DNA from: Scolanthus callimorphus
Lineage: Eukaryota; Cnidaria; Anthozoa; Actiniaria; Edwardsiidae
Length of the DNA: 64,000 nucleotides
NCBI GenBank assembly: GCA_033964015.1
Contig: CM066912.1
Coordinates: forward strand, 29,040,532 to 29,104,531
Direction of reading: 5' to 3'
The notes beneath the pieces are model-generated. The model was not told the DNA's origin. It worked only from the letters and a program-made list of their open reading frames with translations, and made no database searches. Positions 1,430-59,030 of this stretch are shown here, piece by piece; position 1 is the stretch's first letter, and each line of letters starts with the position of its first letter. The position numbers and the translations under genes are program-made.

Positions 1430-1651
1430 GCGAATTTTTTTTCCAGCCTAGTTCATTGCGCATCCTCTTCTGCGCATATCTTAAATTAGATATTCCGTGA
1501 CGTGTAACACACTTTGTTGACACAAAATTCAAGATGGCGGCAGATTCGCATCTCGCGATGGAGAAACCCGGAGAAACACCGTGAAAACCATTACTTACCC
1601 TTTGTTGAGAGTGGAATATACTGTTTCCAACCAGGTATATTGTAAATAAAC
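1430..1651 (+). repeat. Left terminal inverted repeat of the MULE
   Basis: This starts GCGAATTTTTTTTCC and runs inward for 222 bp. It matches the reverse complement of 15183-15404 with two substitutions and two 1-nt indels (T8 versus T9, and AA versus A). It contains AAGATGGCGGC (1531-1541), a match to the YY1 consensus, and on the outward strand a splice-donor-like GGGTAAGT. Its open reading frames on the outward strand are incidental. Confidence 0.93.
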
Positions 1652-1738
1652 GATATGAAATACGTTTTCTTTTCAAAAAGCGCTATGGCTGCCTCAAAAT
1701 CAATGCTTCGCTGGCTACCGAGGTTTCAACGCATGAAG

Positions 1739-2015
1739 TAGGCTGTATTTTATGCAAATTATTTTTTCAGCCCAGTTCATGAACGGGACAGATTATCGAA
1801 TTACTCATACCAAACTGCTTAGGAACGCATGACATTTATTCCAGAAAGCCCACATTTCAAAAATAATTTGCATAGAATGCAGCCTAGTAATATACTTCTC
1901 TGAGTCGTCGTGTTATTGTTATCTAACAAACTCGACTCAGACTCAGAGAAGAACTACAGGCTGAATTTTATGCAAATTATTATTAAATATTTATTCAGCC
2001 CAGTTTACGAACAAT
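1739..2015. repeat. Subterminal inverted repeats in the left arm of the MULE
   Basis: A motif reading TAGGCTGTATTTTATGCAAA (1739-1758) is repeated inverted at 1861-1888, giving a 150-bp unit with about 28-bp arms and possible TA flanks. A third copy in direct orientation starts near 1957. The companion motif CAGCCCAGTTCATGAAC (about 1769-1785) has related copies near 2000 and, inverted, at 15060-15115 close to the right end. These could be a nested MITE or subterminal binding sites of the element. Confidence 0.6.
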
Positions 2016-2620
2016 TTACTAGATACTGAAATGAATGCAACTCGAAAGAAAACACCACAAGGTATTAATTTATAGTGCTGCTGTGCTAGTCTAAGCTATA
2101 GAAAAATGTTTACTCAATGTTTTCATAGAAATTTGTTTTTTATAATGACTGCCTGGTGCAGACTAGCGACATACATACATGTAGGGATAAGAATGTTATG
2201 TTGTAGCTCTGAAATCGTGGGAAAATGACTGAGGTAATAAAAATAATTTGCTAAATCATAAACTACTTTCCCACAATTTCTTACATATCCGCTACAGATG
2301 CTAACGCTTTGCGGATTATGACATACTGTATAAATAAAATACTTAGTTTTGAGATAGAGCCGTCAGGATTATACTTAGAGAATATTATTATTCATGACTT
2401 TCACAGACTTTGTGTTGTAAATGTGTCACTTCGACGTAGCACGCTTGCTCCGAGGGAAGCAAGGTAGTGTGTACGTTTGTTGAAACTTGAATGAAAATTT
2501 TTCTCCGCTCAAATCTTTCAAGTTAGAATTATCCCTGCACATTTCTGTATGAAATCTGTAAGAGAACCATTTGGGTTTCAATGTCTTTGGTGCTTTCGGC
2601 TGCGCGAACTGAGTTCTTTT

Positions 2621-2840
2621 TTAGTTTCTGTGGGAGAATTCAACATGGCTCCGATGGCGGCTTTGTCCCTCGCTTAAGAAATCGCTTGAATTAGAACTTT
2701 GCCCAGGGTGAATCTTTTCCAACAAAAACACGCCCACGGTCCAGATTTCCAGCTCTTCAGGTTTGCGAACTTCTTTTGGCGGCACAGCTTCAGGGCTAAG
2801 CGGAGTGAGTGTGGACACGATTTCTCTTACGGTATTAATA
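2621..2840 (-). pseudogene. Coding-like fragment in the noncoding left arm of the MULE
   Basis: A minus-strand frame of about 65 residues, open upstream to about 2835, reads STLTPLSPEAVPPKEVRK and then PEELEIWTVGVFLLEKI. Composition and periodicity look protein-coding, unlike its surroundings. I do not recognise the family. It could be a captured host exon, since MULEs are known to pick up gene pieces, or chance. No matching neighbouring exon was found. Confidence 0.25.
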
Positions 2841-2954
2841 TATAGATTGAAGGGGATGCCTAGTGCCTTATGTTACTAGTACTTTCGTCGTATTCATTCT
2901 GAAAGTTGACTTGCACATGTATTCATGTAAACTCAAATCCTATCATTTTGTTCC

Positions 2955-3735
2955 ATTCCTGCCTGGGGGGGGGGGGGACTCTTAGGTTAAAATGCTAGGG
3001 GTGACCCTAAAAATACCTGGTCGGAAGAAATTTCCACCCTAAAAAATACCTCCCAGTCTGAAAATACCCTAAAAATACCAACAACTTTGACTGATGAAGG
3101 CTAGTTAACTAGCCGAAATATAGGTGTTTGTTTTGATATCCACTTTTCAATTATTGTTTAATCTTCTCTCAACTTTCAAATACACTACCTTATTTGTGTG
3201 AGAAAAATACCTATTTTTCTTACCATACCGGTTTTTTTTTCGAACCACTAAAAAAATACCAGATCGCCGATTTCAACCCCTAAAAAATACGATGGTCACC
3301 CCTAGCATTCAAATATAGCGAGTCCCCAGGAGGTACTTGGATATAAAAATGATGGGGGGGTCCAAATTTCATACCCAAAAAAATACCTGAGCCATAAATT
3401 TTATATCCAAAAAAAATACCTGCTCCCAAAATTTCATACCCCAAAAATACCCAATGTTTTTGGCCTAAAAAGATACCAGCATACACATTATGGCGGTCCC
3501 ATTATGTTTCCTGGAAATAGCTTCAGCTTAACTAAGTGCAGTATCTTGATGATCAACTTAACGTTTCAACCCCCCAAAAAATACCCATGGATTTTTCAAC
3601 CCCAAGAAAATACCTGGTGAAATTTTCACCCCAAAAATACTGTTACTACAAATTTCATACCCCAAAAAATATGTCGGACCCCCCCCCCCGTCATTTTTAT
3701 ATTTGAGTCCCCCCCTGGGAGCGAGTCCCCCCCCA
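2955..3735. repeat. Nested low-complexity inverted-repeat elements inside the MULE
   Basis: Degenerate units of the form AAAAATACC recur across the stretch. One element is bounded by inverted copies of ATGCTAGGGGTGACC (about 2992 and 3290-3306). A second is bounded by GAGTCCCC and ATATAAAAATGA near 3320-3350 and its inverse near 3687-3715. Runs of 13 G and 8-10 C occur at the borders. No protein is encoded. Confidence 0.55.
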
Positions 3736-3779
3736 AGGCAAGGCATTGCTGTTTAAATGTAGTTTTACACGTCAGTAGG

Positions 3780-6700
3780 TTAGAATTTCCCTGAATTTTG
3801 CTGGTTTAAAGATGTATTCTTTGATAGAGAATGTTGTCGTTTTGGTACTTTTATTTTTTTTCTTTTGTGCATCACATGGAAGTCATCATCATCACTTGCA
3901 ACTCGCTTCTTAGTGCCAAGTGCTGGGCGGCCTTGGGCAGCTTTCTTCATGCCCTTTGAAGGACCAACAGAACGTCTCCCAGAAGCTGTGCTTTGGACTG
4001 GAATCCTCTTTCCATATCTCCTGAGAGACGTGCCTGTGGTTTTCGATGTTGAATTTCCTTGCTGACCAAACTTGTGGAATGCAGATGCAATGTTGCAGAT
4101 GCTATTGCCTGATGCCATCATCTTTTGTATCTGTCACAGAACTTGTCCACTCCAGATAAAAGGTTCACATCATTTAGCATGAGCTTTGTCGACAGGTCGT
4201 CCAACACATCATTCAGCTTTTCCCTGACCTCAGAAGCAATGCAAGGTCCACTGGTCTTCCTACTGGTATCAGCACTGATCTCCTCGTCTGATGAGTAATT
4301 GCACTCTTGAGACAAAGTACACTCATCAGTTTGGCTTTTATCCAGAGTGCCAGCAGATTCAAGTTTGCTGTTGGTAGTACAAGAAGCAGAAGTGGTACAT
4401 CTATTTTCAATGGTCTGCTGAAAGAGGCTGGCATAAAAGGATAAATCCTTCGTTTTTGCGCCCATTGCCAGATTTGCATACTTCTGTCTTCCTGTGGCAT
4501 CCAGAGATGGAATAAAATTTATGCATGGAACCTTGTATTTTACCACAGCAGCTGCTTGGTGCTTACATGGTTGCCCTGTCATGCCAACTGGACATTCACA
4601 GACCCCAACACTCAAATCTACTGTATATCTAGTTTGTTTGTCGGAGCTCAACACAGAAAAAGAGTTATTGGAAAGTTTTCTTATTTCATCTGGATTTAGG
4701 TCATCAACCTTCAAGTTCATGAATCTGTGGGACACAAAACGATCAAGCCTGTTATGTGCAATGGATAGTAGTCTGCTCTGATGATAATTCTCAAGTGTTA
4801 TAGTGATAAAGTCAAACACTTGCACCAAGTTGTATGCCTTCACCCTATCAAACACAATGTCCTTCAGTATACGTATTCCAGCTTCTGCATAGTTGTTTGT
4901 ATGATTGCCCCTCAAGCGGAGGTGTATCCGGTGGGCCAAGGACCATTCTTTTTGTCTGTCCATGAGCTTGGTCACACGCTTGATATAATTTGGGTATTTC
5001 TTTGCTATTGAGTCATCACAAAGTTCCTGAAAACTGCTCTTTAGTGACTCTTCCGATTGAGCAAAAACAAGTGTTTTCATCAGTCCCATGAGATGCACTC
5101 TGTCACCCTGACTAACTCCATTTTTTTTGTTCCAGAGCCAAGTCCAATTTGCTTGTAGGTAGTGGAATATACAGAGCAATAACTTTGATACTTTCCAAAC
5201 CTGTTGTATGCCCTCACGCTCTGGTGGGCTATCATCAGTTAAGAAAACCAAAGGGCCTTTCTTTCCTCTGACATAGAAAGCATTTTGGGGGAAGACTTGG
5301 TCTCTTAATGTGGACATGGCTGTTGTTACAACATGTTCACTTTCGCCCGATGTCATGACAACCCCTAGTGGTAACCCCCCTGCTGCATTACTAGTTGAAA
5401 GGATGAACAGAGGATTGTTAAATCTCTCAAGGCCCGCTGTAGCATCACAGTATACAATTTCAGCACTCTGGGGGACCATCTCATGTACTCTTGTCATAAG
5501 AGGTGTGCATATTGCCAGTATGAGGGGCTGTTGCTGTACCTTTTTTTCATCTACGTAGAAACTGAAACTTCTGTAAAAAAGCCTTTCCTCCCGCCTTGGC
5601 ATTTTCTATGTTGTACCTTTCAACTCTTTCTTGCAGTTCTTCAAACATAGGTTTCCCATTCTGGTCACCTAGGGTGCTGCCTCTCCAGTTATTGTAGAGA
5701 CGGTAAAGATACCCAAGGTCTGGATTATGGAACCTGTCAGCTGCCAGAGTTTCGAGGTCCTCATCTTGAGTAATAGCCCTGAGTTGCAGCTGTTCCTGGA
5801 TGATTCTCTTAACCGAGCTGGGACTGTGACCCTCTTTGAAATACCTTAAGCACTGCTCCTTGATGTCTGAAGATGGATCTCGATATCTTAGGGCTGAGGC
5901 TGAGTGGAGAGGGTGGTTGTGGTTGTATCGCAATGTAATACTACAAGGGTGTGTTTGGATGAAGGGATCTCTCTTACAGGCACTCTCAGATTTTGTGAAG
6001 ATTTTTGCAGTAAGCTTTGCCGGGCATTCAGTATCTTTATGCTGTCGGGTGGATGATCCGGATGAGGCTGACACATTTTTTTTCCGCTTAGTATAACCAG
6101 TGTTATGCTGGCAACATCTTACTGTTTTAAATGTAATTCGTTCACCTATACACTTAGGTTTTCTTTCCTTCCTGAAGGTTGCCTCTGTAATCATCTGGTA
6201 CTCTTTAATCCAATCCTCTACCTCTGATTCATGGAAAATGTTCACCCTTAAGCAAACCTCAAATGACTGTTTTGCAGCTCCTAAAAAGGCAATTTTATCT
6301 AGGGCTTTAAAACTTTCTGTAATGTAGCTGAACTGAGGGGGCAAAACTTCAAGTACAGCAGATGGTATGTTCTTCTCAGCTTTACATTTGGATTTCTCTG
6401 GATGCATCCGTGCTTTTTTGTTTTCATCGTGGACATTTTCTGGGTTCTGTTCTTTTTTGTCATCTCCTGATGTTGTGCGTTTCCTACTGTCAGAGCTTGT
6501 TGTTTGTTTTCTTATAACATTTCTTGGGTTCTGGATTTGTTTGTCTTGTATTTTGTCAATTCCTATTGCCTGGTTACTTGTGTCATTTCCTGTGTTCTGT
6601 TTTTTGTCATCATCTCCTGTGTTCTGTTTTTTGTTGTCATCTCCTGTGTTCTCTTTTTGTTGTCATCTCCTGTGTTCTGTTTTTGTTGTCATCTCCTGTG

Positions 6701-6865
6701 TTCTCTTTTTTGTTGTCATCTCCTGGAGTTTTATCAGTTTCCGTTACACCATATTCCGGTTGTTTACATGTCGACTCCTGTTCTGGTTTGGTATTTGCCA
6801 TGTGGTAATCTGGATTATCAGTATCACTGCACATTGGACTGGAAATCAATAATAACAGTGTCAGA
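3780..6865 (-). CDS. MULE transposase part: zinc-binding domain, DDE transposase, SWIM finger (last exon)
   Basis: A single long exon. In order it holds an acidic linker with 9-residue GDDNKKQNT-type repeats (about 6600-6740); a Cys/His-rich WRKY-GCM1/FAR1-like domain (RCCQH, CPAKL, NHNHPLH; about 5930-6110); and a transposase with Asp in YCDATAGLE, Asp in FLTDDSPPE, the Cys-His-Trp signature CIFHYLQANWTWLW and Glu in NNYAEAGIRIL. A SWIM finger, CECPVGMTGQPCKH, sits near 4555-4600, and a basic tail (KRKKIKVPKR) precedes the TAA at 3780-3782. The frame is broken by 1 nt at 5547-5602 (near an A6 run) and at 4118-4121, and twice inside the 27-bp repeats. The exon follows the Ulp1 exons in phase (two acceptors, 6865 and 6838, both in frame), so it probably belongs to the same protein. 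Confidence 0.88.
6600..6740 (-). repeat. 27-bp coding tandem repeat in the transposase exon
   Basis: Four to five copies of a 27-bp unit encode GDDNKKQNT or GDDNKKENT in the acidic linker between the Ulp1 and zinc-binding parts. Adjacent units differ in the length of an A5/A6 run, which is what breaks the frame here. Confidence 0.75.
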
Positions 6866-6967
6866 CTGAAAACAGCATCATTCATTTGTACTGATGTAAT
6901 TCAGTAATTTTGTCACAGAAAATTATTCTTGAGAATGGTAACACAAAGTAAAAAAGGTTATTATTAC

Positions 6968-9900
6968 CTGTAATTTGCACCAAGAATGTCTACGCTCATA
7001 AGCAACCGGAAATAAAGCATCTTTTCCTGTGAAATTTAAGAAATAATCTAACATTTATAGGGGATTGTTTCAACTAGAGGCTTAATGAATTCCGCTGAGT
7101 ATGATGTGGAGAATTATTCAGATTGAGGGGATGTTATTCATTTAGGCTGACGGCCGAGGTGGATAACACTCAGAGATCTGAATAATTCTCCACATCATAC
7201 AAAAGCTGAATTTATTATTAATTGTTTTATTATTCATTCAAAATGAACTTCCCCACTTTACTTTGAAGGCAGGCAGTTTTGACAGCCTCCCTACAAGCGT
7301 AACACGTTACGTGACGTCACGTTACATGCAATAATTTTTTTAAACTTATCTAATCTTTGACATCATTGATGAAGTTGCTTGCCTTCAAAAACATCAATAA
7401 TTTGCCGGGGGCCCTCAACCAATCAAAAGCAGGGAAATATATTGAATGAATAATGATAAGGGTTAACCTAGGAATCATTACCATGGTTACTACTACATGT
7501 ATGTAATAATAATTATGTTTTGTGCTACGTCAACTCAACCCATGCCTAGGGTTGCCTTTTAGTGAAACTAACTACAAAATCAAGAGTACTAAAGTACCAT
7601 AACTGAAGAAGTTGGCGCTCCCATTATCAACTAGACTTGGTTGTAGGAGGGGCTAAAATGCATTAACATTGATGAAACAAATTATCTTGTTCTTCTTACC
7701 TGACTGAAGTAGAGTGGCACTCCTTCTGCAAGGTGCGCTGCATACTGCAAGTCCAATATATAATTTATAAATTCACAATGTCTAGCAGATTATTTTTAAA
7801 TGATATGATTATTGTGTAATCAATTTAGTTTAATACTTTATCAGGTGGATAACATCCTTACCTGACATGTAAACACTCCACAGTCATAGCCATTATTTGA
7901 GAGGGAATTGACTGCAAAGAAAATAGGGTTTAGTACTTTTTATAGCTTCCAGTGCTTTTTTTATTTCTTTCCTTGGAGCATCACCCAAACAGCTTTCACA
8001 GATTTTTAAATTTTAATTTTAATTTTTGAATTCTTGCAAGGTACAGGGATTGTTGGGTTGTGGTGGTGGTGGTGATGTGTCGGGGGGTGGGCAAGGAGGG
8101 GTTCTCTAAGGACAGAGGGATTTGTTTTTAAATTTGGTTGTAAGGCAAAGGGATTTTGCTCATTTGCTCTCTCCATAGTGCCCCCCTGCACATAATTGTC
8201 ATGTGCAATCAAATTTGTACCAGCTTCAAATTATGTAGCTACAAAAAGGTATGCACTGACCTTCTCAGCTGGAGCAAAGAAAGACCATTGACTGAAATCT
8301 AGTTGAAGCCCTTTTTTGTAGTAATACTCTTCACTTAGGAAAAGGCTGAAAGAGAGGAGGACAATAATATATTATTACCCAACCATTGCATTTACTAATA
8401 GATTCTCACTATATTATTTGAAAAAAGTTGTTATTACCATAGGTTCTCAAACCAAGGTGCTGCAGTTGCTGTTGATCCTCCATAGGGGTCTAAGAATAAA
8501 CTTAATCTCTTCTTCATGTAGACAGCCTGTAAAGTAATAACAAGTGCATCTGAGCAACAGCAACATAATTATTACATCTATTAATTTAATGCAGTCAAAG
8601 TGTAAGCTGTAGCTTTTCCATTCTAGTGAATAACATGATATAAAAAAAAAGATTTGTGGTACTGGTGATCTGTTGACCATAAAATGATTACCTACCAATA
8701 AGCACCAGTGTTTATTGTTGATGTTAACAGGAATTATGATAAGGTCTTCTTCGAAGATGTCAATTCCCTGTCAAATAAAACGTCACACTTCTTGTCACCT
8801 CAAAGATTCAAAAAACCATTATAAAAACAACAGATATTATCATTTTACATTATGCCATTTCACTTCTTATTTACCTTTGACCATTTATATAATTTTTTTT
8901 TCTGGTAACCAGGTGATGCTATAAGCTCTAGCAGTTTGTTGGAAAAGAAGACAACCTTCTTGCCCTGTAGCATAAAATCAATTTTATTCTATGAAAATAT
9001 AGAAAAACATTTTAAATAATTATCAAGGAGGATTCCATAAAATATGAAATTCTCCTTTTTATTATATAAACACCAATGAAATCGGTTGATCTCAAGTGAA
9101 AAGTTGACATCTTCACACACGAAAATAACATGTGAAATTACTTCTACATAATATTGTTAAAACATCACACTTGCCTTTACTCAATGCTCGATTTTTAGCT
9201 TAACTCAAATAAAATTTAATTTTGGTATTTCATTGATGTTTAAACAGAACATTACATGACCACTCAAAGATAAAAATAAAATTTGTATCTCCGTGCGGCC
9301 ATGTAATATCCTCTATATATTTAAACATGCTTGTATTTTTGGATATTTTTACTTTTACTCCTTTGTCTGCCCCTTATTATAATTATCTCCTATATTTCAG
9401 AAGAGAATGCTTTAAACAGAATGATGGTAAATACTTGACTGTAAACTTGTAACATGTGTAATATATTGTACTTCACCTTATTCCGAAGACATTTCTGCAT
9501 CAACTGGAGATATGTCTCAATGACCTGGAAAGATATGCAAGTTTCACAATGTCTGTTCTCAGTTGAAAGAAAAGCATTTATTACTGAAGGCTTGCAGTAA
9601 TGTTTTCTCATTTTTACCAGGACAGACAATAGATAAATACATACATGGTAAAGCACACAATAGAAGAATGGAACTTACACTTGCACTGAGCCATTTTCGA
9701 GGCTTTAGAGTAGCTATAAGACGTCCTTTGGTGTGTAAATCTGATTTCTTTCTAACTTTTTCAACCTGCAAAATGAAATGGTTGCTTTTATTCATAACTT
9801 TAACTCGGTCAGACAAATTAATCATAAAACTATTGAGCTTGACATTGAATGCTTACTAGTTGAATCTCTGTACTGCTTAGGTCTCTGTGCCTAAAGCCTT

Positions 9901-11194
9901 TACTTGATGTTACACCAGCTGGCATTTCTGCAGTAACCCGTTTTCTGATTTCCGTTTTGATGTTTTGCAGGAATGCCTGTGTACGTTTAGCTGCTTCTTC
10001 CATTTTGATTTCTCTGTGTGGTGCCTGTGATGCTGCTGCTGGATGGTATTGTGTATATGTCGCATTTTCTGCTGGGGGGATGCCACGGGCCTCTGCTACT
10101 GGAGGGCAGCATTCCTTAGGTTGAACCTGTTCCTCAACTTGTGGTACCTGACCTGAGGTCTGGTGATGTGCCAAGTTTGGTGTAGGTGGTACTGGTGGTG
10201 TGTTTGGTGCCTGACGTGAGGTCTGGTGGTTTCCCTTGTTTGGTGTAGGTGTACTGGTGGTTTGTTTGGTGCCTGACGTGAGGTCTGCTGATGTGCTGTG
10301 TTTGGTGTAGGTGGTACTGGTGGTGTGTTTGGTGCCTGACCTGAGGTCTGCTGGTGTGCCGTGTTTGGTGTAGGTGGTACTGGTGGTGTGTTTGGTGCCT
10401 GACGTGAGGTCTGGTGGTTTCCTGTGTTTGTAGGTGGTACTGGTGGTGTGTTTGGTGCCTGACGTGAGGTCTGGTGGTTTCCCTTGTTTGGTGTAGGTGG
10501 TACTGGTGGTTTGTTTGGTGCCTGACATGAGGTCTGCTGATGTGCTGTGTTTGGTGTAGGTGGTACTGGTGGTGTGTTTGGTGCCTGACCTGAGGTCTGC
10601 TGGTGTGCCGTGTTTGGTGTAGGTGGTACTGGTGGTGTGTTTGGTGCCTGACGTGAGGTCTGGTGGTTTCCTGTGTTTGTAGGTGGTACTGGTGGTGTGT
10701 TTGGTGCCTGATGTGAGGTCTGGTGGTTTCCTGTGTTTGGTGTAGGTGGTACTGGTGGTTTGCTTGGTGCCTGACGCGAGGTCTGGTGGTTTCCCGTGTT
10801 TGATGTAGGTGGTACTGGTGGTGTGTTTGGTGCCTGACCTGAGGCCTGATGGTTTCCTGTGTTTGTAGGTGGTACTTGTGGTGTGTTTGGTGCCTGACGT
10901 GAGGTCTGGTGGTTTCCCATGTTTGGTGTAGGTGGTACTGGTGGTGTGTTTGGTGCCTGATGTGAGGTCTGCTGGTGTACTGTGTGTGATGTAGGTGGTA
11001 CTTGTGGTGTGTTTGGTGCCTGACGTGAGGTCTGCTGGTGTGCTGTGTGTGGTGTAGGTGGTACTGGTGGTGTGCTTTGTGCCTGACGTGAAGTCTGCTG
11101 GTATGCCATGTTTGGTGCAGGTGGTGTGCTTGTTGCATGACGCGAGGTCTGTTGGTGTACCATGTTTGGTGTTTGCAATGGTACTAAAGGCGTC
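6968..11194 (-). CDS. Ulp1/SENP-type SUMO protease domain with a Pro-rich repeat N-terminus (MULE cargo)
   Basis: Exons: 9857-11194, 9679-9765, 9477-9524, 8875-8964, 8696-8767, 8438-8526, 8261-8345, 7862-7911, 7700-7744 and 6968-7026. All have GT-AG borders and compatible phases. The protease core reads PRKWLSAS (Ulp1 WLND box), YKWSKGIDIFEEDLIIIPV, NKHWCLL (catalytic His), FLDPYGG (catalytic Asp), PSQ (oxyanion Gln) and NGYDCGVFTCQYA (catalytic Cys). Thus the full C48 His-Asp-Gln-Cys set is visible. Family members remove SUMO or related modifiers from proteins. Two 1-nt breaks are seen: one in the Pro-rich array (about 10252) and one in exon 7862-7911 just before the catalytic Cys. The last exon joins the transposase exon in phase. 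Confidence 0.87.
7099..7200. repeat. Palindromic MITE-like insert in a MULE intron
   Basis: Inverted arms of about 25 bp (TATGATGTGGAGAATTATTC and its reverse complement) enclose about 50 bp. The element lies in the 673-bp intron between exons 7700-7744 and 6968-7026. Confidence 0.7.
10170..11190 (-). repeat. Coding minisatellite: about 17 units of 60-63 bp, with a four-unit higher-order repeat
   Basis: Each unit encodes a variant of QAPNTPPVPPTPNTAHQQTS or the NTGNHQTS form. A block of four unit types repeats with a period of about 249 bp: the segment starting near 10233 matches the one starting near 10481. The first copy has lost one base (about 10252), shifting the frame. The array links the USP and Ulp1 domains and would form a flexible Pro/Gln/Thr-rich spacer. 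Confidence 0.9.
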
Positions 11195-14100
11195 TCATTC
11201 TTGTTCTTCATAGAATGCCATGTATGGAACTTGTCTTAGAATTGTGCTCTGGACCATGGAAATCTAAAAAGAAAAAAAAAATTACCAACATCATTGCCTG
11301 CTTTAAAATTAGCTATAACTATTACCTGTATGGCAGTAGTTTATACACTCATTTCCGACACATTTATTGCTACAGTATGGTATTCACCTTTCCATCGCTA
11401 GCAAGCATCCATTTTTTTCATGTGGAAAGCATGTCATGAAATGGCCTCCATTGAAAGGTCCACTGTGGACAACAAAAGCTGATAGCTTGTAGGCAGATTC
11501 TATGGGGCCTCCATCCTGAAATGATACAAAAACAATACAGTCCAGTATCTACATAAGAAAGTAACTTTTATTGAGGTGTGGGGCACAGACAGGTAACTAT
11601 AGTAAAGAGGTGACTGCCTAAGAGAGGTTCAACTTTATATAATATAGTGGTCTATCCAGAATTCACACTTATTCTATTGTCAAAAGTGCTTCATCAAACT
11701 TGTTGGGAAGCACTGAACAACAAATTAGCTTGCACGTACAGGGACATACATCACTCCTTTCCTAAAAGCAATATTATAATGTTAAGTCATAGTATGTAAC
11801 ACAAGCTTGGCAGAAGACTGACAAACGCTCCCATATGACTTTTTAAAGACATCTGTTTTTCAGTATTTCAGAAATGTGAGAAGCTAGCAGTACCTTATAT
11901 AATGATAACTGTATCTGTGTATTGATCAAAAAAGCTGGATTGTCAATCATTCCTTGCAGTCTGTTTAAACAAAAAATGTGAGAATATTGTCAGCTCCAAC
12001 AAACAATTGAGGTTGACTGTTTTTAGTGTCCAAGTTGTTTGTCATTTTTTTGGGAAAAAAGGATAAAATACTGGACCTACAGCACAAGTGGTAGCTGTGT
12101 GGTGACCATGGCTTCAAAAGAGATGACAGCTTAAAATAAATTTGTTCAGCACTCGGACTCCCTTAATAAATATCAACTTACATGGAATTGGGGTTCATCT
12201 GTACATACCTTGAGAAATGAATTACCAGCACATTTGGACATGAGTCAAACTGCATCTTTTTCACTGCCAATGTTTGGGTATGGCATCTATTATTTTTAAA
12301 GGACAGACACCTGTTTAATATTAATTTGCAACAGGCACAGGTGGCAGTGTGTACTAGTGATTGTTAAGCAATATAATAATATCTGAAAGGCAATACTCAA
12401 TTTTAACTTTCACATTTGTAACCATTTATTTCTCTCCCCTTACATAATGCTGGAGTGCTTCACTTATTGAGTTGCATGTTCGTGCCTAAGAAGAAGAAAA
12501 AAGAGATCAAATAATTGTGTGTAACATTAGAAATCGTGCATACTGTTTTTTTTTATTAAAGCACAGGCCTCAGGCTAGGAGAAAATCGATAGAGAAGTTT
12601 AAAAATAGCCAAGTTGTCCGAAAAAGTACCTTAATCAACTGAATAAACAAAATAAAGAATACTTACTATTTTTATACTTCTCTATTGATTTTCTACTAGC
12701 CTGTGAGTCATACAAATTTGTACTGCTTACCATCAGGAAATGCACAGAAAAGAGAGGGGGGACATCCATAAATTATTACCTAAGTTAGTTTATTATACAC
12801 ATTCTCCAACAAACAGAAATGGAAAAGCTCCAAAAGGAAAATTAGTGCAGTTGTTCTTTGGATACAAATGTTGTATTTGGCTGCCTGAATGTAATCCTAA
12901 CCTCCGTGTTTACCTTTGCTGTCAGTCATGACTGCAAATTTGGATTCTGCTAGACATGCAAGATTTGATTTTGACTTTACCACTTACCAGAGGATCAAGT
13001 GTGATAGATGTTGCTTGTGTATCAGCTGTTCTATGAGATATGTTACATTTTTGGCAAGTAACTACAAGCAATGAAAGAAAAGCAACATTATGTATAATGC
13101 ACTAGTCATTTGTTTCCACCGACCCCAAACCCCCGCGAAATAGCAGGGGAATATGAAACAGATGTTGTCAAATTTGAAATAATTCCACCGCCTACCAGGG
13201 GAGAACGCCTTGGCAAATTCCCTACACCCCGGGGAAACATTTCCTACACCCAAGGGACAAATTCCACCCTCCACAAGATGGATGCAAGAAACTTAATTCC
13301 TAATACTATCAAAACCAGTAGTATGTCTTTTCCGAAATGAAAAAGACAGATTTTTTGTTTCCCCTGCCATTCCCCCGGCCGGTTATCTGAGCCATAGCAA
13401 ATTTGAAGTAAACTCCCTGGGGATCGGGGCACGAATACAAGACAAACCACTGATATTTCCCCCAATATTGCCTGGCAAAATCCCTGCATGTCGCGGGGGT
13501 TGGGGGTCAGTGGAAGCAAATAACACTGCATAATTGATACAGTATTTTGTATGCATTTAATCTTTGAAATGTGATGGGGCATCATTACCTATACTATATA
13601 CTTTACATTCAGACATCAAGACCTCCCTGTAAAATAAATTAGAGTAATATCTACTGTACTGTAGGAAATATGCAAAATTGCCAGCATTTGGGGAGCTTCA
13701 AAGACACCCCTTACAGAGACAAACTGACATTTTTAATAGTTACATTGGTGCTGCCCAATTAAATCTTAAACACAAACATTGAAATACAAAGCTGGCACCA
13801 ACCTATTGAAACTTAGCCAACATGTCGCCATAAGGAAGCCCAACCCCTCCCTCTCCCAGCAAATAGATCCAGTTGTGTGTTTTATATTATGCAATATGTA
13901 ATTCTTTAATAAAAGCTATTTACCATAAAAGTTCTAATAAGCCTGTGGGGGTCTTGTTAAAATACTGGGACTCGTAGAAGGAGGACTTATAGCAAAGGGG
14001 GCTTAATAGATAGGGGGGCACATGAGGGCGTTTACGGCATGTCTATGTCATGTTAATAATGAAGCTTGTTGGGGATTTGGGGGGGGGGGAGCAGAGCCAT

Positions 14101-14954
14101 TGTGGCTTTTTCTATTGCTCACTGATGACGGCTGCTGTGAGTGAGTGAGATATTTCTCTGATTCAACATGTATACAGATTTTTGTTTGCAATCTCCATCA
14201 CTGTTTTTATAATGGTACACTGGAAAGCAAAAAAACAGTTGTGGGGGGGGGGGGCTCTTTGGTTAGATTGTATGGCAAGGTGGGGGCTGAGTTAAGTGAA
14301 AATTTATGAAAACTAGAGCCCCCCCCCCCCCAACCACACCCCCCATCCTGAGTCAGTCCCTCCCCCCTCCCCTCCCCCAAAACATGTGCTTCATGGAAAT
14401 AAATACCTTGCATGTGGCAAAAGGTTGTTTGTCAACTGCAACATCATCCCTGTAAAACACTCATGTGGATCTCCAGTTTTTCCAGTTGTAAAATTCTGAG
14501 AGAGTACTTTGAAGAGTAGAAAGAAAAAATAGGAAAATATTGCTTTAATTTAGATAAGCTTAAATCTAAAGCAGAAACTCTCCTTGAACCCGCAAGCAAT
14601 TTTGTAATTATAAATCAACTCACCTGATTGTTTCCAAAATACTCCTGATGGGTAAACTATTTTCCGTTTTGTGGAAAGCATCTCCGTGAACAAGGCGTTT
14701 ATTTCACAGATGATGCAGTTGGTTTCAGAGTGATCTTAAGAGAAATATTTGAAATCACGCTCAGTCGATTGTGCAACTTCATGTCAAAAAGACTAGCCAT
14801 AAGCTGCATAATATAATTGGTGCTCACCGTGATTTGCCCTCAGGGCAGCTCTCTGGAACATAGTTAACATTCTGGGCGTGTGAAGTAAGCATTGTAAAAC
14901 GGCGTTTATAAAACACCCGTTTCCAAAATTATGAAGTCCACAAATAGCCGGCAT
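11195..14954 (-). CDS. Ubiquitin-specific protease (USP) domain carried by the MULE
   Basis: Ten exons: 14828-14954, 14624-14734, 14407-14495, 13589-13626, 12988-13061, 12407-12485, 12209-12286, 11894-11960, 11388-11515 and 11195-11263. The protein starts MPAICGLHNFGNGCF at the ATG 14954-14952. The USP boxes appear in order: Cys box GLHNFGNGCFINAVLQCL, GDPHECF (QDxHEF box), zinc ribbon TCQKC and YKCERC, VKKMQFDSCPNVLVIHFSR, His box YKLSAFVVHSGPFNGGHF, WMLASDGKV, and the terminal VPYMAFYEEQE. It resembles USP17/36/42-type enzymes but is compact (about 287 residues). In the current sequence TGA (11197-11195) ends this frame, and a 1-nt shift would continue it into the Pro-rich array. Further 1-nt inconsistencies occur at the exon 2/3 junction, 12429-12431, 12407 and the T7 at 11412-11418. 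Confidence 0.88.
12562..12706. repeat. MITE with about 40-bp inverted arms in a MULE intron
   Basis: The left arm reads CACAGGCCTCAGGCTAGGAG and the right arm is its imperfect inverse ending CTAGCCTGTG. It sits between USP exons 12407-12485 and 12988-13061. Confidence 0.7.
13113..13519. repeat. About 400-bp inverted-repeat element in a MULE intron
   Basis: The left end TTCCACCGACCCCAAACCCC pairs with the right end GGGGGTTGGGGGTCAGTGGAA. The interior is rich in CCC/GGG and codes for nothing visible. It lies between USP exons 12988-13061 and 13589-13626. Confidence 0.65.
13780..14400. repeat. Repeat-rich MULE intron with G and C runs
   Basis: The segment at 13930-14030 (GGGACTCGTAGAAGGAGGAC and following GGGGGCTTA motifs) is related to 23590-23960. 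Runs of 10-11 G and C occur near 14081, 14243 and 14320. No exon was recognised between 13626 and 14407. Confidence 0.4.
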
Positions 14955-14974
14955 GTTGTTATCGTCTTCGAAAA

Positions 14975-15002
14975 GCGCGGGAAAAGAATCATATTTCCCG
15001 CG
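14975..15002 (-). promoter_or_regulatory. Two E2F-like sites upstream of the MULE gene start
   Basis: GCGCGGGAAAA (14975-14985) and TTTCCCGCG (14994-15002) lie 20-50 bp upstream of the USP start codon. Both fit the TTTSSCGC E2F core. They could tie expression of the element to dividing cells; this is inferred from motifs. Confidence 0.4.
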
Positions 15003-15182
15003 TACAAAACTATACTAAGCCTACCCCCATACTTTCACTTTGGCGATTCTGTCTTCGTTCATGAATGAACTGGGCTGAACAACTAATTAACATAACGCTC
15101 AGCCTAGTTCATGTGTTCGTAAATTCCGTAGCCAAGTCAACGCTTGTTTGCAAAATAAATCAAACCACAATACGTTTCAACA

Positions 15183-15404
15183 GTTTATTTACCATATACC
15201 TGGTGGAAACAGTATATTCCACTCTCAACAAAGGGTAAGTAATGGTTTTCACGGTGTTTCTCCGGGTTTCTCCATCGCGAGATGCGAATCTGCCGCCATC
15301 TTGAATTTTGTGTCAACAAAGTGTGTTACACGTCACGGAATATCTAATTTAAGATATGCGCAGAAGAGGATGCGCAATGAACTGGGCTGGAAAAAAAAAT
15401 TCGC
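15183..15404 (-). repeat. Right terminal inverted repeat of the MULE
   Basis: This is the inverted copy of 1430-1651 and ends AATTCGC at the target duplication. The same YY1-like motif is at 15292-15302 (reverse orientation). Transcription of the element's gene would start just inside this repeat. Confidence 0.93.
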
Positions 15405-15413
15405 GCAGGCCGG
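15405..15413. repeat. Right 9-bp target-site duplication of the MULE
   Basis: GCAGGCCGG directly abuts the right end of the element and is identical to 1421-1429. Confidence 0.9.
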
Positions 15414-22634: not shown

Positions 22635-22869
22635 CAGTCACGCAATATTTCGAGAGTCACACAAAACTCTGTGACAAGTCAAACTAAGACAACTTTACGG
22701 GAATTTTACTGACTTTTGCTTCATTGACGACTAGTGATCTGCAATCTCCTACTGAATAGAAAATGTTTTTCTATTATTGAGCGAAAAGTGAAGAAACTCC
22801 ATCTCTGTTCCCAGTAATTGCCTCCTGACAATATTTCCCTTGGAATATAATTTTAAAAAATCCTAGTTT

Positions 22870-23340
22870 CACCGCAAACATTTTTCCCCGTCACGCGGAC
22901 TATTAAGTTTGGGAGGTGATTGCGACTGTCAGGCAATAGGCATGCGATGAGCATGGTTTGTGATGTCAACCGCCACCAGGGGATGTGAGAGGGGCGCGAA
23001 ACGTCTAATCGCCTCCACGGCAACTTGTTGCGCACTGTGTTGGAGGGGGCTGAGCGAAAGCCATTTGGTAAATATGCATCAATGCATGATCCCTGAGATG
23101 CGCTCGCCTCATTGGTAACGATTTGATTTGACGCTCTCGGGACATCCATTTGAGGGCCGTCGCTGATTGGTTGATTTTGAGCGTTGGGGCATGCGCTGAA
23201 AGGTCTTTCTCTCAGCAGCTCTGTATTAAATCTCGCGCATGCGTCAGTGGCTGTCACCATAGAGCCTTCCCGCGCGAGGTTACGAGCCGGGGAGCTCTGG
23301 GTTCGAGAATGTGATTTGATGCGAAATCCTCTTTCCGCGT
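22870..23340 (-). repeat. MITE copy of the GAGCCGGGGAGCTCTGGGT family
   Basis: The clearest part is 23128-23311, the reverse-oriented relative of 46606-46825 (shared TGGTTGATTTTGAGCGTTGG, CGCATGCGTCAGTGGCTGTC and ACGAGCCGGGGAGCTCTGGG). It carries little divergence from the other copies in the window. Confidence 0.7.
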
Positions 23341-23589
23341 GCCGGGCTAATAATGTATGCGGTTGTAATTAGGACAATATTTTTTAGTGCAATTGTGGTG
23401 GATCCAAGATAGCATTGAAATGCCGGCTCGTTTAGACACGCCCTAAGCAATCTATGTTGGTTCTTCATAGATAATCTTTATAAGATGTTATTAAGATTGC
23501 TTCTTTGAGAAGAAGTAAAAAATTTACATACAATATGCTGGTCCCTCTTCATTAACGCCTCTAGAACATTAGTATATCCCGCTGGTAAA

Positions 23590-24129: not shown

Positions 24130-25196
24130 TATTAATTATATAACATCCATGTTCAAACCCAAACTGTCCAATTTTAGCGCAAACTGTCCAATTAGAGCGC
24201 GCGCGATCCAATTAAAAAATAATTGGACGATTCAAGAAAAATTGATCTGCCGGCACAATGGGATTTCGAGCTGGCTATATAATTAACAATACAATTAACT
24301 ATACAGGCGTAAATATGCCTGAAATGTTTCCTTTTACGCCTAACGTAAAATAACAACTGTGTAAATTTCAGTTTCTGCAGTGTTCTCCTGCGTCAAATTA
24401 CGACTATGATTATTTCTTAATTTCGAGCCCTGAAGTGCTTGTCTTTCTAGGATTGTCCAGAGAGAAAATAGAATCGCTAAAACAAATTTTTCTCACGCAA
24501 GTTATAAGTAATAACCAAATTTCAACTAAACGTGGCGAATGGAAAAATACCTGGCGCAAAGCGAAATCCAAAAGGTTCTCATTAAATATCTAAATGTCCC
24601 GGAGCTTATTGCTAGAAGCTCTTAACTGAGTACTTAGTGCACAATTATAGCGATCTATTAGAATGACCGCTTGAAATGATACTACAGTTGACATGGCAAC
24701 GCATGAAATGAAACCGCTGACCGGGCAGACGAACACACCACCTGCTACGATTGCCCTGAAAATAGACGTATTTGTACAGACAATATAGTCAGTTTTCTAA
24801 TATTGATCTTGTTTATGTATTTGACCATCTTTTTAGGCTTCTTTGGCTATTTGACCATCCAATTAAAGTAAAATGTTTACTGTTTTCTTTGTGAGGAAAC
24901 TCGAGTCATAATAGAAAAGTCAGTCGGCGTCTTGGAGTCTCTAAAAACTAATGAATCTTAAAATAAAAGTCCCAATGTCTTAACAAGATGCAGTTCTTTT
25001 ACAGCCATTAATAATAAATTATGTTGCATATGTTATAATTTCAAAGTCATAGCGACACACGCTTTGTATTCACTTGCCTTGAATTTCCCTTGGAAACATT
25101 GAAACACAGATCACAGTCCTATTTTCAACCTTGGCAGCAAAGTAAAAAATAACGCCTGTAAAAAGTACGGAACATAGCGCTACAAAGTTTGTAGAA
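24130..25196. other. Spacer upstream of the coiled-coil gene
   Basis: Fragments of the 24010 hairpin family (CCAATTAAAAAATAATTGGA near 24210) are present. No gene was recognised. Confidence 0.35.
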
Positions 25197-26710
25197 ATGT
25201 CTGCTAAACAAGTTCGATTTAGTGCAGGACGTGAAAGAGAATTTGAAAATAACTCTCCTAATGAGGTATCTGAAAATGTTGAAGTCAAAACACAGGAAAA
25301 TGAAAACTCGTTGTTGCCCGACATTCTCCTTTCAAAGAATACCACTCAAAGCAACGAGAAAGAACCCGCAAAGAGAAAGAAAAAGAAGAAGAAAACAGAG
25401 CTACAGCAGCTCAAAGGTGAGAAAAAGATGTTACAAAAGGAGTTGAAAATTGCTAAAAAGCATATAAGAGCCGACAGTGCTCAAAAAGAAAGTGAAAGTT
25501 ATTCACCGTTTGAAAATCGTCACCGGTTGGCTAGAACGACTAGTGAACTTCAAACAAAGTTGGAATCTTTGAAGGATCAGATTTCTGTTAAGGATAATTC
25601 AAGAAAGAGAAAATAAAGAAGAGTTTTCACACGAAGATTAAGAAGAAAAGCATCAAAGCCGATAAGCAGCATAACAGGCTGATTAAGATGACTGGTAAAC
25701 TGGAAAAAATAAAGCGAGGAGAGGAAGACTTGAGGATGGAAATTGCTGAAGAAATGGCTCAGCTTGACATTGAAGAAAAGGAAAAAGAAAAGGAGTTAAA
25801 TAAATTGAATGCTACACCACGAGGGATTGGAATTAGAAAGGGAGCAAAATTGGCAAAGAGCTTTGGAATAAATGATTCTAGCATCGAGGAAAAAAGGAAT
25901 TCAAACCCTTTTCAAACGGCGAGTTTTAGTGGTAGGAAGTTAGGAAAGTTGTCGGAAGTTGATGATGATTCGGAAAAGAATGTTCCAGAAAAGTCTACAA
26001 ATGGGGTTGCTGTGTTCAAGCTGGATGCCGGGTTGAATGGCGCCATGGTGCCTATAGATCAAGCCCCGACCCATGCCTGGGTACGAATGCCATGTGTTGA
26101 CACCGAGCCTAATATGAGACTCGGGCGAAGACTTAGCACCGTAGAGACTAGAATCACACCTCCGCACCCTCCTATACGGCGATTCAGTTCTTTTGGACAC
26201 GGAAGTAATCCGCAAGGTACCGCCCACAGCAGTATTATAAGAGGATCGAATTCGGGTACTTCCGGGTTCCAGTCCCCTAACGAAAACACGGGTCTTTTAC
26301 CACAGGGTGACCAAATCAAGCCCGAAAGAGCCGTGCGGTCCGCTGTTGGATTTGAGCGCGAACTGGATGAGGAATTGACGTCAGATTTAGCGCCCCGCGC
26401 GCTGTCAGCAAGACTACCTAATGAGCGATGGCTGAGCATAGAGGAAAAGAAAATACGAGCCGATAAATTAGCGAAAAAGTATGAGTTCACTCGCGAATTG
26501 CGAAATACGATACACGAGCATATGATCACAAGATCTTATAGTTTCTCATATTTCAATATCATACCGCCGTACAAACACAAGAAGCAGAAGGCTGTGAAAT
26601 CTAAGCAATCATACAATCGGGTAGTGTATGAGGATAAAATGAGAGTGACCGAGTTTAGTAAGAAATATGGGAGCGCTAAACATAGAGGCAACGATCACGC
26701 AACTGCGTGA
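25197..26710 (+). CDS. Unknown basic, coiled-coil protein, single exon, with one frame break
   Basis: The frame starts MSAKQVRFSAGRERE at 25197 and runs to TAA at 25614-25616. Adding one A to the AAAA at 25609-25612 would carry it on to the 25688-26710 frame, giving about 504 residues. The first part has a Lys-rich nuclear-localisation-like run (KRKKKKKK) and heptad-rich helices. Helices continue to about residue 200, then a Ser/Pro-rich disordered middle and a C-terminal helical basic part (IEEKKIRADKLAKKYEFTRE) follow. I do not recognise the family. The single base needed and the continuity of the helix favour one gene. Confidence 0.65.
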
Positions 26711-33393: not shown

Positions 33394-33893
33394 TGAAGTA
33401 TGAAAAGTTTCACTACTTGAATTACTTTTTCACACTGGAAATGAACTACATCGTTCTGGCAGAAGTAAAGGTGTATGGTTTACCTTTGCAGAAAGAATAT
33501 TTTCTAATAATATACAGTACTAGATTTAGAAAAACATCGAAGGGCAAAAGGAAACAAATAAATTCAGGATTCCTCCATTTTGTTTTCAATCTATTACACC
33601 GCCGGAGGCTTCTGGGTAAAATACGCCACAGGGAGACCGCATTCGAAATTATGTAATAAGCAAAAATTTAAATTCTATAAAATTTGAAATATAAATGTGT
33701 ACAACACAGTTCTTTTGGCTAGGTAAATAAATATTGTACACTTATGTCAAACGTTATTACTGAAAAATATATTTTGTTGCGCTTTTAAAGAGATTGCATA
33801 ACCTAGCACATGACGGTATCCCTGTGTTAATTTGCGTATCACCGCTGTATTTTTTGGAGCCCGAGATTTCTCATTTCGAAGTACTTGACAAAA
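33394..33893. promoter_or_regulatory. Shared 500-bp upstream region of BECN1 and the BAK-like gene
   Basis: The two start codons point away from each other across this stretch. It is AT-rich with no TATA box placed convincingly; a bidirectional promoter is inferred from spacing only. Confidence 0.4.
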
Positions 33894-35703
33894 ATGGCGT
33901 CCTCGGCTGCCGGGAACAGCTCATCAGCCGAAGATCCAGAGGAAAGCGAAAGACCCGAAACCAATGAAAGGGTAGTTGCCAGAGACACAGAAGGCGTCTT
34001 TCGCTATTTTATGTACCAACGCTTTCAGGAAGAAACCGAAAGAGGCGACAACGAGGTTCAATTCACTAGCGCTCGCTCTGACGCTCTCGAAGAACTCCGA
34101 TCTTGCAATGATCATTCTCAGCAGCATATAGCGACGATAGGACGGCGATTGGGAGAAGTAGGAGATGAAATAGATGCCAAATACAAAGACCAGTTTCAGG
34201 ACATGATAGAAAGTTTGTACCTCACCCCCGGAACGGCCTATGACACTTTTGCCGCAGTGGCTCGGAGGCTTTTCCGCTCGGGGATAAGCTGGGGCAGAAT
34301 AATCGCTCTGCTTTGCTTCGGATACGAAATTGCTATAACTGTTATACGAAGAGGATTCAGTGGCAGCTTCCTGAGGAGGATTATTCGATTTGTGGTGGAC
34401 TTTATTTTCCGCGAAAGAATAGCCCGTTGGATTGCTGAACACGGAGGCTGGGTAGGTGAAATGTACAAGATTCTCGAATACTCGATCAGCAGGCTTCTGT
34501 TCTGTCTCGTCTATCAATCCAATGCTTTATTATCGTTTTAGTAGTAAACAGTGGTGAGAATTATTGCAAGAGATACAATCTATTAGTTGTGTTTTTCCGG
34601 CGCATTGATTCCTGAATTATATATATTGTCTGACTGTACATAAAAACCTGCAAGCTTTTCATATTAATCTGAAATTTATCACAACAAAAACAGAAAAAAC
34701 CCTTTTTTCAGTTTATATCGGAAACAAACGTGAATTGACTTTATTCCAGTTTTTTTGATGCTGAAAGCACGAGGAGACAATAAGCGAAAACAATCTGCAA
34801 ATATAGATGTACTTAAAGCATTTTACATCCAAGTATTTAATGAATAATATATTTAGCTTGTTGATGTCATTATCAAGCATTTCTAAAATGGCATTGATTG
34901 CAATCTCTGCTGACAGTAAATATTTTCCTAGAGTTTTCCTGTCTTGACTTGATTTGCATTAAATGTGTTGTGCACAGGAAGGGGAGGTAAGGGTGTAGTT
35001 AAGCTAAAGAAAGTTTTTCCTTTCACTGAGGGCAAAAAATCAGCTTTTCGCTGAAATGTGTTTTCAGTTTCCTTCAGATTTTAAGGAACTACTGAAGAGT
35101 GCTTTTCTCCCAGAATGATTTGATGTTCTTTACTTAGAAAATACTATTTTGTAATAAAAAAATATTTTAATCCTGCTGATTGTTTTCAGGTTTAGTTGAT
35201 AATCCATCCTCTAGCATGCTTGTGCAAACAATTTCATCATACATAGCAAGCATGAGCCAATTTAGCAATTAGTAGTTCCTATTATTGGGATACTACAGGA
35301 CAGAGGGGAGGGGGGACTTTCCATAAAAATAGATGGGGGTGCTCTTCCTATCCCTTAGGGTATACAATTCACCCACCTGCCATCTCCAAGAGTCTGCTAT
35401 CCCTTAGGGTATAAAATTCACCCACCTGCTATCTCTTAGGGATGTCCAAAGAGTCTGCTATCCTTTAGGGGGCCTCACATCAAAGGTGACCTAGAAATTC
35501 AGTGACAACAGAATAAATTGTTTCAAATTGAGGTCTATTTTTGCAATAAATACTCGGGAGCCACCTTAATCTATAACCTTCTATTGTTCAAGGTATCGGT
35601 GATGGATTTCCGTCTGTCTGAACCAAGCTGGTACACCGTTGGGACTGTAGTTGTCCTAGGAGTGCTTGTTGCGGTCTGGGCTACACAAAGACTCAAGAAA
35701 TAA
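33894..35703 (+). CDS. BAK1: BAK-like Bcl-2 family protein (multi-BH-domain, tail-anchored)
   Basis: Two exons: 33894-34451 (an in-frame ATG also lies at 33885) and 35593-35703, joined TGG|GTA in phase 0, giving 222 residues. Order: acidic N-terminus; TEGVFRYFMYQRF helix; BH3 TIGRRLGEVGDEID (about residues 82-95); BH1 SGISWGRIIALLCFG; RFVVDFIFRERIARWIAEHGGWV including BH2; and a C-terminal hydrophobic anchor (WYTVGTVVVLGVLVAVW) ending QRLKK. The order and wording match BAK more than BAX or Bcl-2. BAK proteins sit in the outer mitochondrial membrane and oligomerise to permeabilise it in apoptosis. It is divergent from BECN1. Confidence 0.92.
35300..35510. repeat. TATCCCTTAGGG-type repeat in the BAK intron
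   Basis: Two to three TATCCCTTAGGGTATA units after GGGGGGACTTTCCATAAAAA, related to 28770-29340. Confidence 0.6.
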
Positions 35704-41644: not shown

Positions 41645-42639
41645 ATGGAAGGCTATTCCCTCGATTCTTTAGGGGACTCAACGAGATCGTTGCTATCGCC
41701 TCTCTACTCTGAACAACAACAACAAAATTCGAAAGAAAAATCACATTCCCGCTCACTGGATCACTCATATGGATCAAATACAAGTAATTCAAGCACTGAT
41801 TTAGAAAGTCTTCTGAACTCAAGTAGTGTCAGGTCAAGCTCTACGCCTAAAAGAAAGAGTAAAAAGTCAACAACCAGATGTTATTTATCTGGCGTTAGTC
41901 ATAGTGATAGAACTTTTACAGAGAAGGAAAATAAACCCAAAGAGCTAAGTCCTTGGGAAAAATGGCTCATTGATAAAACTGTAAAGGAGAGAGAACAAAT
42001 GAGCCACCGTAAAGAACAAAGGAGGAAAGAGAAACAAGAATTAGAGAAGCAAAAAAGAGAAAAAGAAAAACTGGAAAGAGACAGAGAGATTAAGATTCAA
42101 GAGTGGCTTGCAGAGAAAGACAGACGGTCTGTGCTTTCAAGAAGTAGTACTCGAAAAACTGAAGAAGAGCTAATGGCCAAAAAGAGGAGGAAAAACAGAT
42201 AATTGATGAGAAATCAAAAGTTGCTTATGACAAATGGCTTCAGGAGAAGATGAATTCAGAACATGAGAGAAAACAAAAGGAGGAAATGGAAGTTAGGAGA
42301 AAGAAAGATGAACTTGTGGAAAAGAAAATGAAAAGTGAGCAAGCATATGAGGATTGGTTAAAGAATGCAAAGTCCAGACCACATGGTGTTTCTGATAATT
42401 TTTGTTATGCAGGAGGAAAATTGACTGGATACTACATGTGGGGGTCATATCCTGCTCCGAAATACTGTAACCCATTACCATGGCAACCAACTGTGTCAAA
42501 GAGGAGCAAAAGTGCTAGAGGCAAGAAGGGAGAAATGCAACCACCCTCCCCTCCCTTGCTATTTAGAGACCAGGAGAAGAGAGAGTTAGGTAAAAAGGCA
42601 GGAAAAAGATTTCACCAAGCTGAGATAAGTTGTTCTTGA
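41645..42639 (+). CDS. CCDC34: CCDC34-like coiled-coil protein, with one frame break
   Basis: The frame starts MEGYSLDSLGDSTRS. A Ser-rich N-terminus is followed by LSPWEKWLIDK, a long charged coiled coil with W-containing repeats (IQEWLAEK, YDKWLQEK, YEDWLKNAK), and the C-terminal signature YAGGKLTGYYMWGSYPAPKY then CNPLPWQP. All match CCDC34. The frame ends at TAA 42200-42202; adding one A to the A5 run at 42191-42195 joins it to the part ending at 42639, giving about 331 residues. CCDC34 is linked to cilia and sperm flagella in vertebrates. Intronless here. Confidence 0.92.
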
Positions 42640-45860: not shown

Positions 45861-46605
45861 TGTTCAGATAGCTTCGGAAATATATACTCTATGCAGTGTC
45901 CTATGTATAGTGTTGTTTTCAAAACTGCGTGAATGTTTTCACTGATTGCGCTTGTATGGTCGCGTGATTTGTCTGCGCGCGCGCGCGGAACTTCTAACGG
46001 TAATCAGGCAAGCGCGCGAGTTGTTCTATATAAATGCGCGCCGTGTATTTGCCCATTTTATGAAGCAAACGAAGAGGGCACATTCTGGATTGAGAACCGG
46101 GCGACACAAAGTGATGAATATCAAAAATGGAGTTTGAGTTTTGGAAGACCGAGCCGGCAACAACGTATGCCTGCCAGAGCACAACTCACCTGCCCCTGGT
46201 ATCCCTGTCTTCAACAACAAGGCTAGAAAACGTAGACGACATTACGTCATGAGGTTCCGCTCATAGCATTTTGGCTGTGCATGTGGCGGCTTTTCAGGAA
46301 AAAATCCCATTTCCGTTCCCCATTTCTTGCTAGTCTACGTTTGTAGAGCTTTCTGTCACTTCGCTGACTTTGAACGGCCAACCTCGTTGCTAGAGCCCAG
46401 GCCAACGCCTGGTAGATACTTGATATATGTGGTTCATTATCTCGCCGCTGGCTCAAACATGCACTGGGCTCTGGGAACGAGATTAATTTTGAATGCAGGC
46501 ATGCGTCAATGACTATACCAGAACCTCCCCCCCAATCTCGTACCCAGAGCCGTCATCTTTTGGCCAGCGGCAAGATTCAGGGCATTCACGTACCCAGAGC
46601 TCCCC

Positions 46606-58864: not shown

Positions 58865-59030
58865 AGACTTTTTCTTGGACTTTTTCTAGGACTTTGTCAA
58901 GTAAGATGCTAATTCACACACCCTTAGCCTGCGAGGCATCTAAAACGGGGAAGGGTCGAGTTAAAACCGGACGAAGGGACTTAGTCCAGTCCCTGACTCC
59001 GTTGTTGCCTGTAGTCGCCGTAAGGACATT

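Follow-up and report, generated by a model that had tools for sequence, protein, structure and literature searches.

Does a transposon that encodes both a deubiquitinase and a SUMO protease hold them as parts of its own transposition gene? The question is raised by a Mutator-like element (MULE) in a 64,000-nucleotide stretch of the genome of the actiniarian Scolanthus callimorphus (GenBank assembly GCA_033964015.1, contig CM066912.1, positions 29,040,532 to 29,104,531 of the forward strand; hereafter the window), in which a ubiquitin-specific protease (USP) and a Ulp1/SENP-like protease are encoded beside the transposase. Why a number of transposons, not related to one another, have picked up proteases for ubiquitin or SUMO is the wider question; a single element in which both kinds occur, with a probable covalent link to its transposase, makes it testable. 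We consider it probable that this MULE carries its USP and SENP-type protease as inherited components of the transposition gene.

The element, a Mutator-like cut-and-paste transposon in a cnidarian host, occupies window positions 1430-15404. The left terminal inverted repeat (TIR; 1430-1651, plus strand) begins with GCGAATTTTTTTTCCAGCC at 1430, and its inverted counterpart (15183-15404, minus strand) ends at 15404; the end-to-end alignment of the first ~222 bases contains two substitutions and two single-base gaps. The target-site duplication (TSD) GCAGGCCGG flanks the element in two perfectly matching 9-bp copies, at 1421-1429 and 15405-15413. Mutator elements are recognized by long TIRs, a target duplication of about 8-11 bp and a MULE-type DDE transposase, all of which are present here, with 9-bp duplications at two insertions (GCAGGCCGG and GGGGAGAGG). 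A reading made earlier from the sequence alone had proposed such a transposon with 222-bp TIRs and a perfect 9-bp duplication, and in these respects it holds. The long TIRs set the element apart from the Kaonashi/KIU (Vandal) group, which is of the non-TIR type. All of the coding regions lie on the minus strand in the order USP, repeats, Ulp1 and transposase, and the leftward coding begins with the USP start codon ~230 bases inward of the right TIR. Neither a relative among MULEs nor an exact copy of the TIR turned up in searches of viral and prokaryotic collections.

The transposase exon (3783-6838, minus strand) is composed of WRKY-GCM1-like zinc ligands, the DDE core, a SWIM finger and a basic C-terminal tail. 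The window copy matches Pfam MULE at E 7.3e-4, under the gathering score, and SWIM likewise under the gathering score. Its homologues number 109 at E <= 0.001 among 7993 candidates scored (best E 4.7e-147), and 39 of the 40 aligned match Pfam MULE (PF10551), while 17 of the 40 match the SWIM finger. Every one of 20 aligned sequences retains the catalytic D, D and E. The CxH..C..HxH positions upstream, which we take to be the ligands of a WRKY-GCM1/FAR1-like finger, are invariant or nearly so in the homologue alignment. The earlier recognition of a DDE transposase and a SWIM finger holds.

The USP is predicted to be encoded by ten exons on the minus strand (14954-14828, 14734-14624, 14506-14407, 13626-13589, 13061-12988, 12485-~12427, 12310-12209, 11960-11894, 11515-11388 and 11263 (or 11246)-11195). 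As elsewhere in the element, the exon ends were set by eye from canonical splice signals and domain matches. With an X placed at one break, the reading matches Pfam UCH at E 1.4e-29 over profile positions 1-225 of 254, and the closest solved structure is USP36 (E 3.4e-12). The Cys box GLHNFGNGCF and the His box GGHF identify a C19 domain. The sequence-only reading had described complete catalytic boxes; the boxes and a near-full UCH profile are indeed present, but the frame is interrupted by a single-base change. By its family, the domain would act as a deubiquitinase. A small inverted-repeat structure lies within a USP intron, at 13105-13524.

The USP exons are followed by minisatellite-like coding repeats of 60/63 bp (10141-11194, minus strand), all three frames of which are open in the window. 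Across 11 units of exactly 63 bp, out of 16, the ratio of non-synonymous to synonymous differences per site (pN/pS) is 2.02, 1.35 and 0.93 in the three frames, and one 62-bp unit shifts the frame. In the gene model a linker (9857-10140, minus strand), the end of exon U1, leads from the repeats to the Ulp1/SENP-like catalytic exons U2-U10, assigned by Pfam, the SENP1 alignment and splice signals (minus strand: 9765-9679, 9524-9477, 8964-8875, 8767-8696, 8526-8438, 8345-8261, 7911-7862, 7744-7700 and 7026-6968, or to 6964 if a TAA codon is used). The predicted Ulp1 coding region, exon U1 included, thus spans 11211-6964 on the minus strand. Read with an X at one break, it matches Pfam C48 at E 4.1e-27 over profile positions 1-209 of 217, and SENP1 is the closest solved structure (E 1.6e-29). 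The Pfam and SENP1 alignments locate the His, Asp, Gln and Cys expected of a C48 peptidase, so that the catalytic set reported earlier is complete in its residues; however, the Gln (SIPSQ) and the Cys (YDCG) do not share a single window frame, because one A, present in both of two further copies on contig C7, is absent from the window. The similarity to SENP1/2 suggests specificity for SUMO. A small inverted-repeat structure is also found within an Ulp1 intron (7099-7200).

We searched the host genome (597 Mb, 302 contigs) for other copies of the element. The left end gave six matches, the window's own two included. Two stretches of contig C7, C7a (13781881-13807624) and C7b (13249368-13271784), contain the right end, USP, repeats, Ulp1 and transposase in the window order, interrupted by extra DNA; no left end was found in the C7a and C7b stretches read. 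C7a and C7b have common right flanks, and were therefore taken as duplicates of one insertion and not counted separately; the pair reflects either a duplicated genomic segment or a duplication introduced in assembly. This insertion is present twice, ~536 kb apart (13.25 and 13.81 Mb; loci L007-L009, L013-L015 and L019-L024). Its TSD, GGGGAGAGG, follows both C7 right ends, and the left copy forms the outer 9 bases on contig C256, which has two stretches in common with C7b; the link from C256 to C7 rests on these 9 bases and the shared stretches. Two insertions with different 9-bp duplications thus both carry the protease pair. Given that the second insertion carries the same three domains beside a different TSD, the proteases travel with the element, as the sequence-only reading had supposed in calling them transposon cargo. 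Of the remaining copies, C3 is a deleted derivative in which the tail of the transposase adjoins the right end, and C15 retains just fragments of the transposase (89-93% identical), no protease exon being matched within the 40 kb read.

The earlier reading had also stated that protease exons at orthologous host loci of other genomes, free of TIRs or transposase, would point to host genes. For the USP, this idea was examined inside the present genome, where a six-frame search gave at least 22 matches (30 candidates scored), seven in the window copy, 14 in the C7 copies and one elsewhere, so that 21 of the 22 matches listed lie in three element copies. The lone match outside them, on C11, is 36% identical (E 3.7e-4), and a closely related host USP is absent from the matches listed. 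A protein search with USP plus Ulp1 gave one match, a distant USP, and no cross-species copy of the pair; since this search requires shared exact words, it is weak evidence of absence.

Are the three domains encoded separately or together? The sequence-only reading had named them one by one; we correct this to a probable single transcription unit. A proposed intron (6839-6967, minus strand) joins Ulp1 in frame to the transposase, with donor ACAG/GTAATA and acceptor TTTCCAG/T both conserved in the two other copies. The apparent stop codon of Ulp1 (TAA) falls within this donor, which a simple scoring matrix ranks 30 of 715 GT sites. The acceptor at 6838, the next one, ranks 168 of 923. At the other junction, the end of the USP in C7a and C7b reads AFYERTRMRHPLVP... 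directly into the repeats. The model contains 18 introns in USP and Ulp1 and one more ahead of the transposase. When 19 donors and 19 acceptors were tested, 17 of the 19 donors were kept in each C7 copy, as were 18 of the 19 acceptors in C7a, with the loss of the USP4 acceptor, and all 19 in C7b. The two other donors are that of USP1, which falls in an alignment gap, and that of USP6, where the tested position is not GT in the window. Because of the in-frame splice between Ulp1 and transposase and the evidence of the C7 copies, a model of three separate genes is not preferred. We judge it likely that a single transcript, read from the right end and spliced, encodes a polyprotein of USP, repeat linker, Ulp1, linker and transposase. 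The window repeats are open in all frames, the C7 repeats contain indels, and at an A-run the copies differ in the phase of the USP exon before the repeats, so that continuity from USP to Ulp1 is not provable from these sequences.

Fusion of this kind has counterparts among the relatives. The named transposase relatives, which include sea urchin, octopus and thrips proteins, lack an Ulp1 fusion. In P0015, P0017, P0027, P0039, P0041, P0043, P0047 and others, an Ulp1-like domain lies N-terminal to the transposase in one open reading frame, and according to the search table these transposases are 37-41% identical to that of the window. In 12 of 110 proteins a motif script detected a CE-clan motif ahead of the core of the transposase, and seven had both motifs; P0049, one of the 12, was judged false. 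The H, D, Q and C residues are invariant in seven of seven aligned Ulp1-like domains, including P0017 and P0043, which the script had missed and which were added by eye. At E <= 0.1, Pfam C48 recognizes six of the seven (best 0.0013; the one displayed is under its gathering score), and a profile of the domain matches yeast Ulp1 (E 2.3e-5). The predicted model of P0041 matches Ulp1/SENP structures first (E 4.9e-7) and also the ISCth4 transposase (E 3.8e-4). No USP was matched in these relatives. Taken together, there is about an even chance that the window holds a single spliced gene for a USP-SUMO protease-DDE transposase polyprotein, the transposase thereby being equipped in cis with enzymes that erase ubiquitin and SUMO, within a lineage of MULEs some of whose members have an Ulp1-like domain fused at the same place.

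To compare exons with introns, we counted substitutions between the window and C7a and between the window and C7b, leaving out gap events, whose counts looked unreliable; the two comparisons are not independent, as C7a and C7b share an ancestor. The protease exons differ at 17 of 1783 (C7a) and 18 of 1776 (C7b) positions and the introns at 112 of 4737 and 115 of 4758, making the exons ~2.4-fold less divergent (Fisher p 1.3e-4 and 2.3e-4). The transposase has 48 substitutions in 2876 positions and 47 in 2839 (p 0.048 and 0.027), with a pN/pS of 0.43 and 0.24, and the USP has a pN/pS of 0.36 in both comparisons. The window contains single-base frame changes in USP, Ulp1 and transposase, the last near 6650, 5580 and 4125; C7b reads through these three but has breaks of its own. 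In the same window, a CCDC34-like host gene (41645-42639, plus strand) has a single-base frame change at an A-run. Its best match, from Nematostella, is 47% identical in the search and 49% over the alignment, others being from Actinia, Montipora and Dendronephthya, and five aligned relatives are continuous at the window's break, for which homopolymer errors in the assembly are a possible cause. These matches support a cnidarian host, probably a hexacorallian. With a conserved host gene similarly broken, part of the damage in the element may be sequencing error, and we do not take its frame breaks to prove decay.

Several observations weigh against a functional fused gene. An in-frame splice has a probability of about one third by chance, the acceptor at 6838 is mediocre, and two of the acceptors in the USP model score poorly (ranks 328 and 292). 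A TGA lies between USP and repeats in the window, accompanying a base absent only from the window. The USP ratio rests on three synonymous and four non-synonymous changes per comparison. For Ulp1 with its linker, pN/pS is 1.10 and 1.24, not below 1, and the catalytic exons have three non-synonymous to one synonymous and four to one; the pooled exons are thus constrained, and purifying selection is not evident in Ulp1 by itself. Each of the three copies that encode all three domains is broken in frame, none was found intact, and C7a and C7b have a nonsense codon in Ulp1 in common, which may be real damage or a shared error. Among the relatives, the confidence of the P0041 model is low (mean pLDDT 52), and the Ulp1-like domains have no significant match to the window Ulp1. 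The SENP1-like Ulp1 may therefore be a replacement or a separate gain.

USPs remove ubiquitin, and SENPs remove SUMO, from their targets. Tied to the transposase, USP and Ulp1 would clear the transposase and the proteins bound to it of ubiquitin and SUMO, and the transposase would thereby escape turnover and SUMO-dependent silencing; in a variant, one of the proteases would additionally cut the polyprotein apart. Such action of the two isopeptidases, in cis or at the transposition complex, is a tentative proposal that we hold somewhat below even; equally tentative is the idea of the earlier reading that editing of both marks stabilizes the transposase or blunts host silencing. Action in trans on host chromatin factors, against SUMO-dependent repression or on ubiquitinated histones in the manner of VANC/KIU of plant Vandal elements, seems to us rather unlikely. 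An excerpt of one study places Ulp1 in VANC-type anti-silencing genes of Arabidopsis MULEs, among them Kaonashi/KIU Vandal, which, like the window element, are MULEs with an Ulp1; in the passages concerned, these are non-TIR elements with the Ulp1 in a VANC-type gene and no mention of a USP, in contrast to the long TIRs and USP here (PMC13317346). Pfam gave no further domain in the three readings, although VANC homology was not searched for. Since Ulp1 is apparently fused to the transposase, here and in some relatives, a role at the transposition complex is favoured over anti-silencing in trans.

A second alternative is that USP and/or Ulp1 serve chiefly to release transposase and accessory proteins from the long product, in the manner of adenain-like CE-clan proteases. 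The relatives do have a CE-clan domain upstream of the transposase, and one of the seven also matches Pfam Peptidase_C5, the adenovirus endoprotease (E 0.013). However, USP and SENP1-type enzymes are by family specific for ubiquitin and SUMO, and we regard processing as an improbable main function. Slightly less probable still is that the proteases are functionless pieces of captured host USP and SENP genes in the style of Pack-MULEs. Gene fragments are frequent in plant MULEs according to the part of PMC6431247 consulted, and all three copies here are broken; yet both domains are complete by profile, their exons evolve more slowly than the introns, the matches listed include no close host USP paralogue, and the pair is retained at both insertions. 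Host genes flanked by chance by two inverted repeats, which the many introns (18 and one more) and host-like splicing might suggest, are largely refuted in this genome by the same unit beside a different TSD and by the confinement of 21 of 22 listed USP matches to element copies, and we give this explanation almost no credence.

How far, then, does a MULE with both proteases depart from known systems? The earlier reading had cited the capture of Ulp1 by plant MULEs, which is right for plants, but an excerpt of PMC2836005 describes Ulp1 in Mutators of hydra and lancelet as well, so the capture is not confined to plants. Likewise, MuDR-6_HM carries an OTU domain, according to the passage available (PMC6446971). 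These elements resemble that of the window in combining a MULE transposase with a cysteine isopeptidase; the portions of the descriptions at hand mention no USP for them, and by this they are set apart. The fused MULE relatives above share the transposase and an N-terminal Ulp1-like domain with the window element, but their C48 has no significant match to its Ulp1 and no USP was matched. Helitrons (Helentrons) with VTD and OTU deubiquitinases, 121 of which are reported in a section of PMC9741609, also have two isopeptidases per transposon; as described there, they are rolling-circle elements, and their enzymes are neither USP nor SUMO protease. In the excerpt of PMC2836005, a Trichomonas protein has a peptidase C19, like the window's USP, fused to Transposase_11, a DDE-type transposase of a different family, with Ulp1 unmentioned, and Ginger1 has a transposase fused to Ulp1 or OTU, as is likely for Ulp1 here, except that the transposase is Gypsy-integrase-like and the protease C-terminal. 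Neither Ulp1 in an animal MULE nor a pair of deubiquitinases in a Helitron is thus new to the literature. In a literature search that did not extend to Repbase reports or most subscription journals, a MULE with a USP was not found, nor was a USP-Ulp1 pair, in agreement with the earlier statement that no described element is known to have both proteases.

Elsewhere in the window, two overlapping frames at 25146-26710 (plus strand) resemble one coding region with a frame change, and an open frame at 33831-34541 (plus strand) was recognized by eye as a candidate member of the Bak/Bcl-2 family. Similar translated peptides, for example DACARFNTE, occur at 22853-23368, 46416-46826 and 58961-59413, with NAQNQPISDGPQMDVPRA in two of these places, which probably represent a dispersed host repeat.

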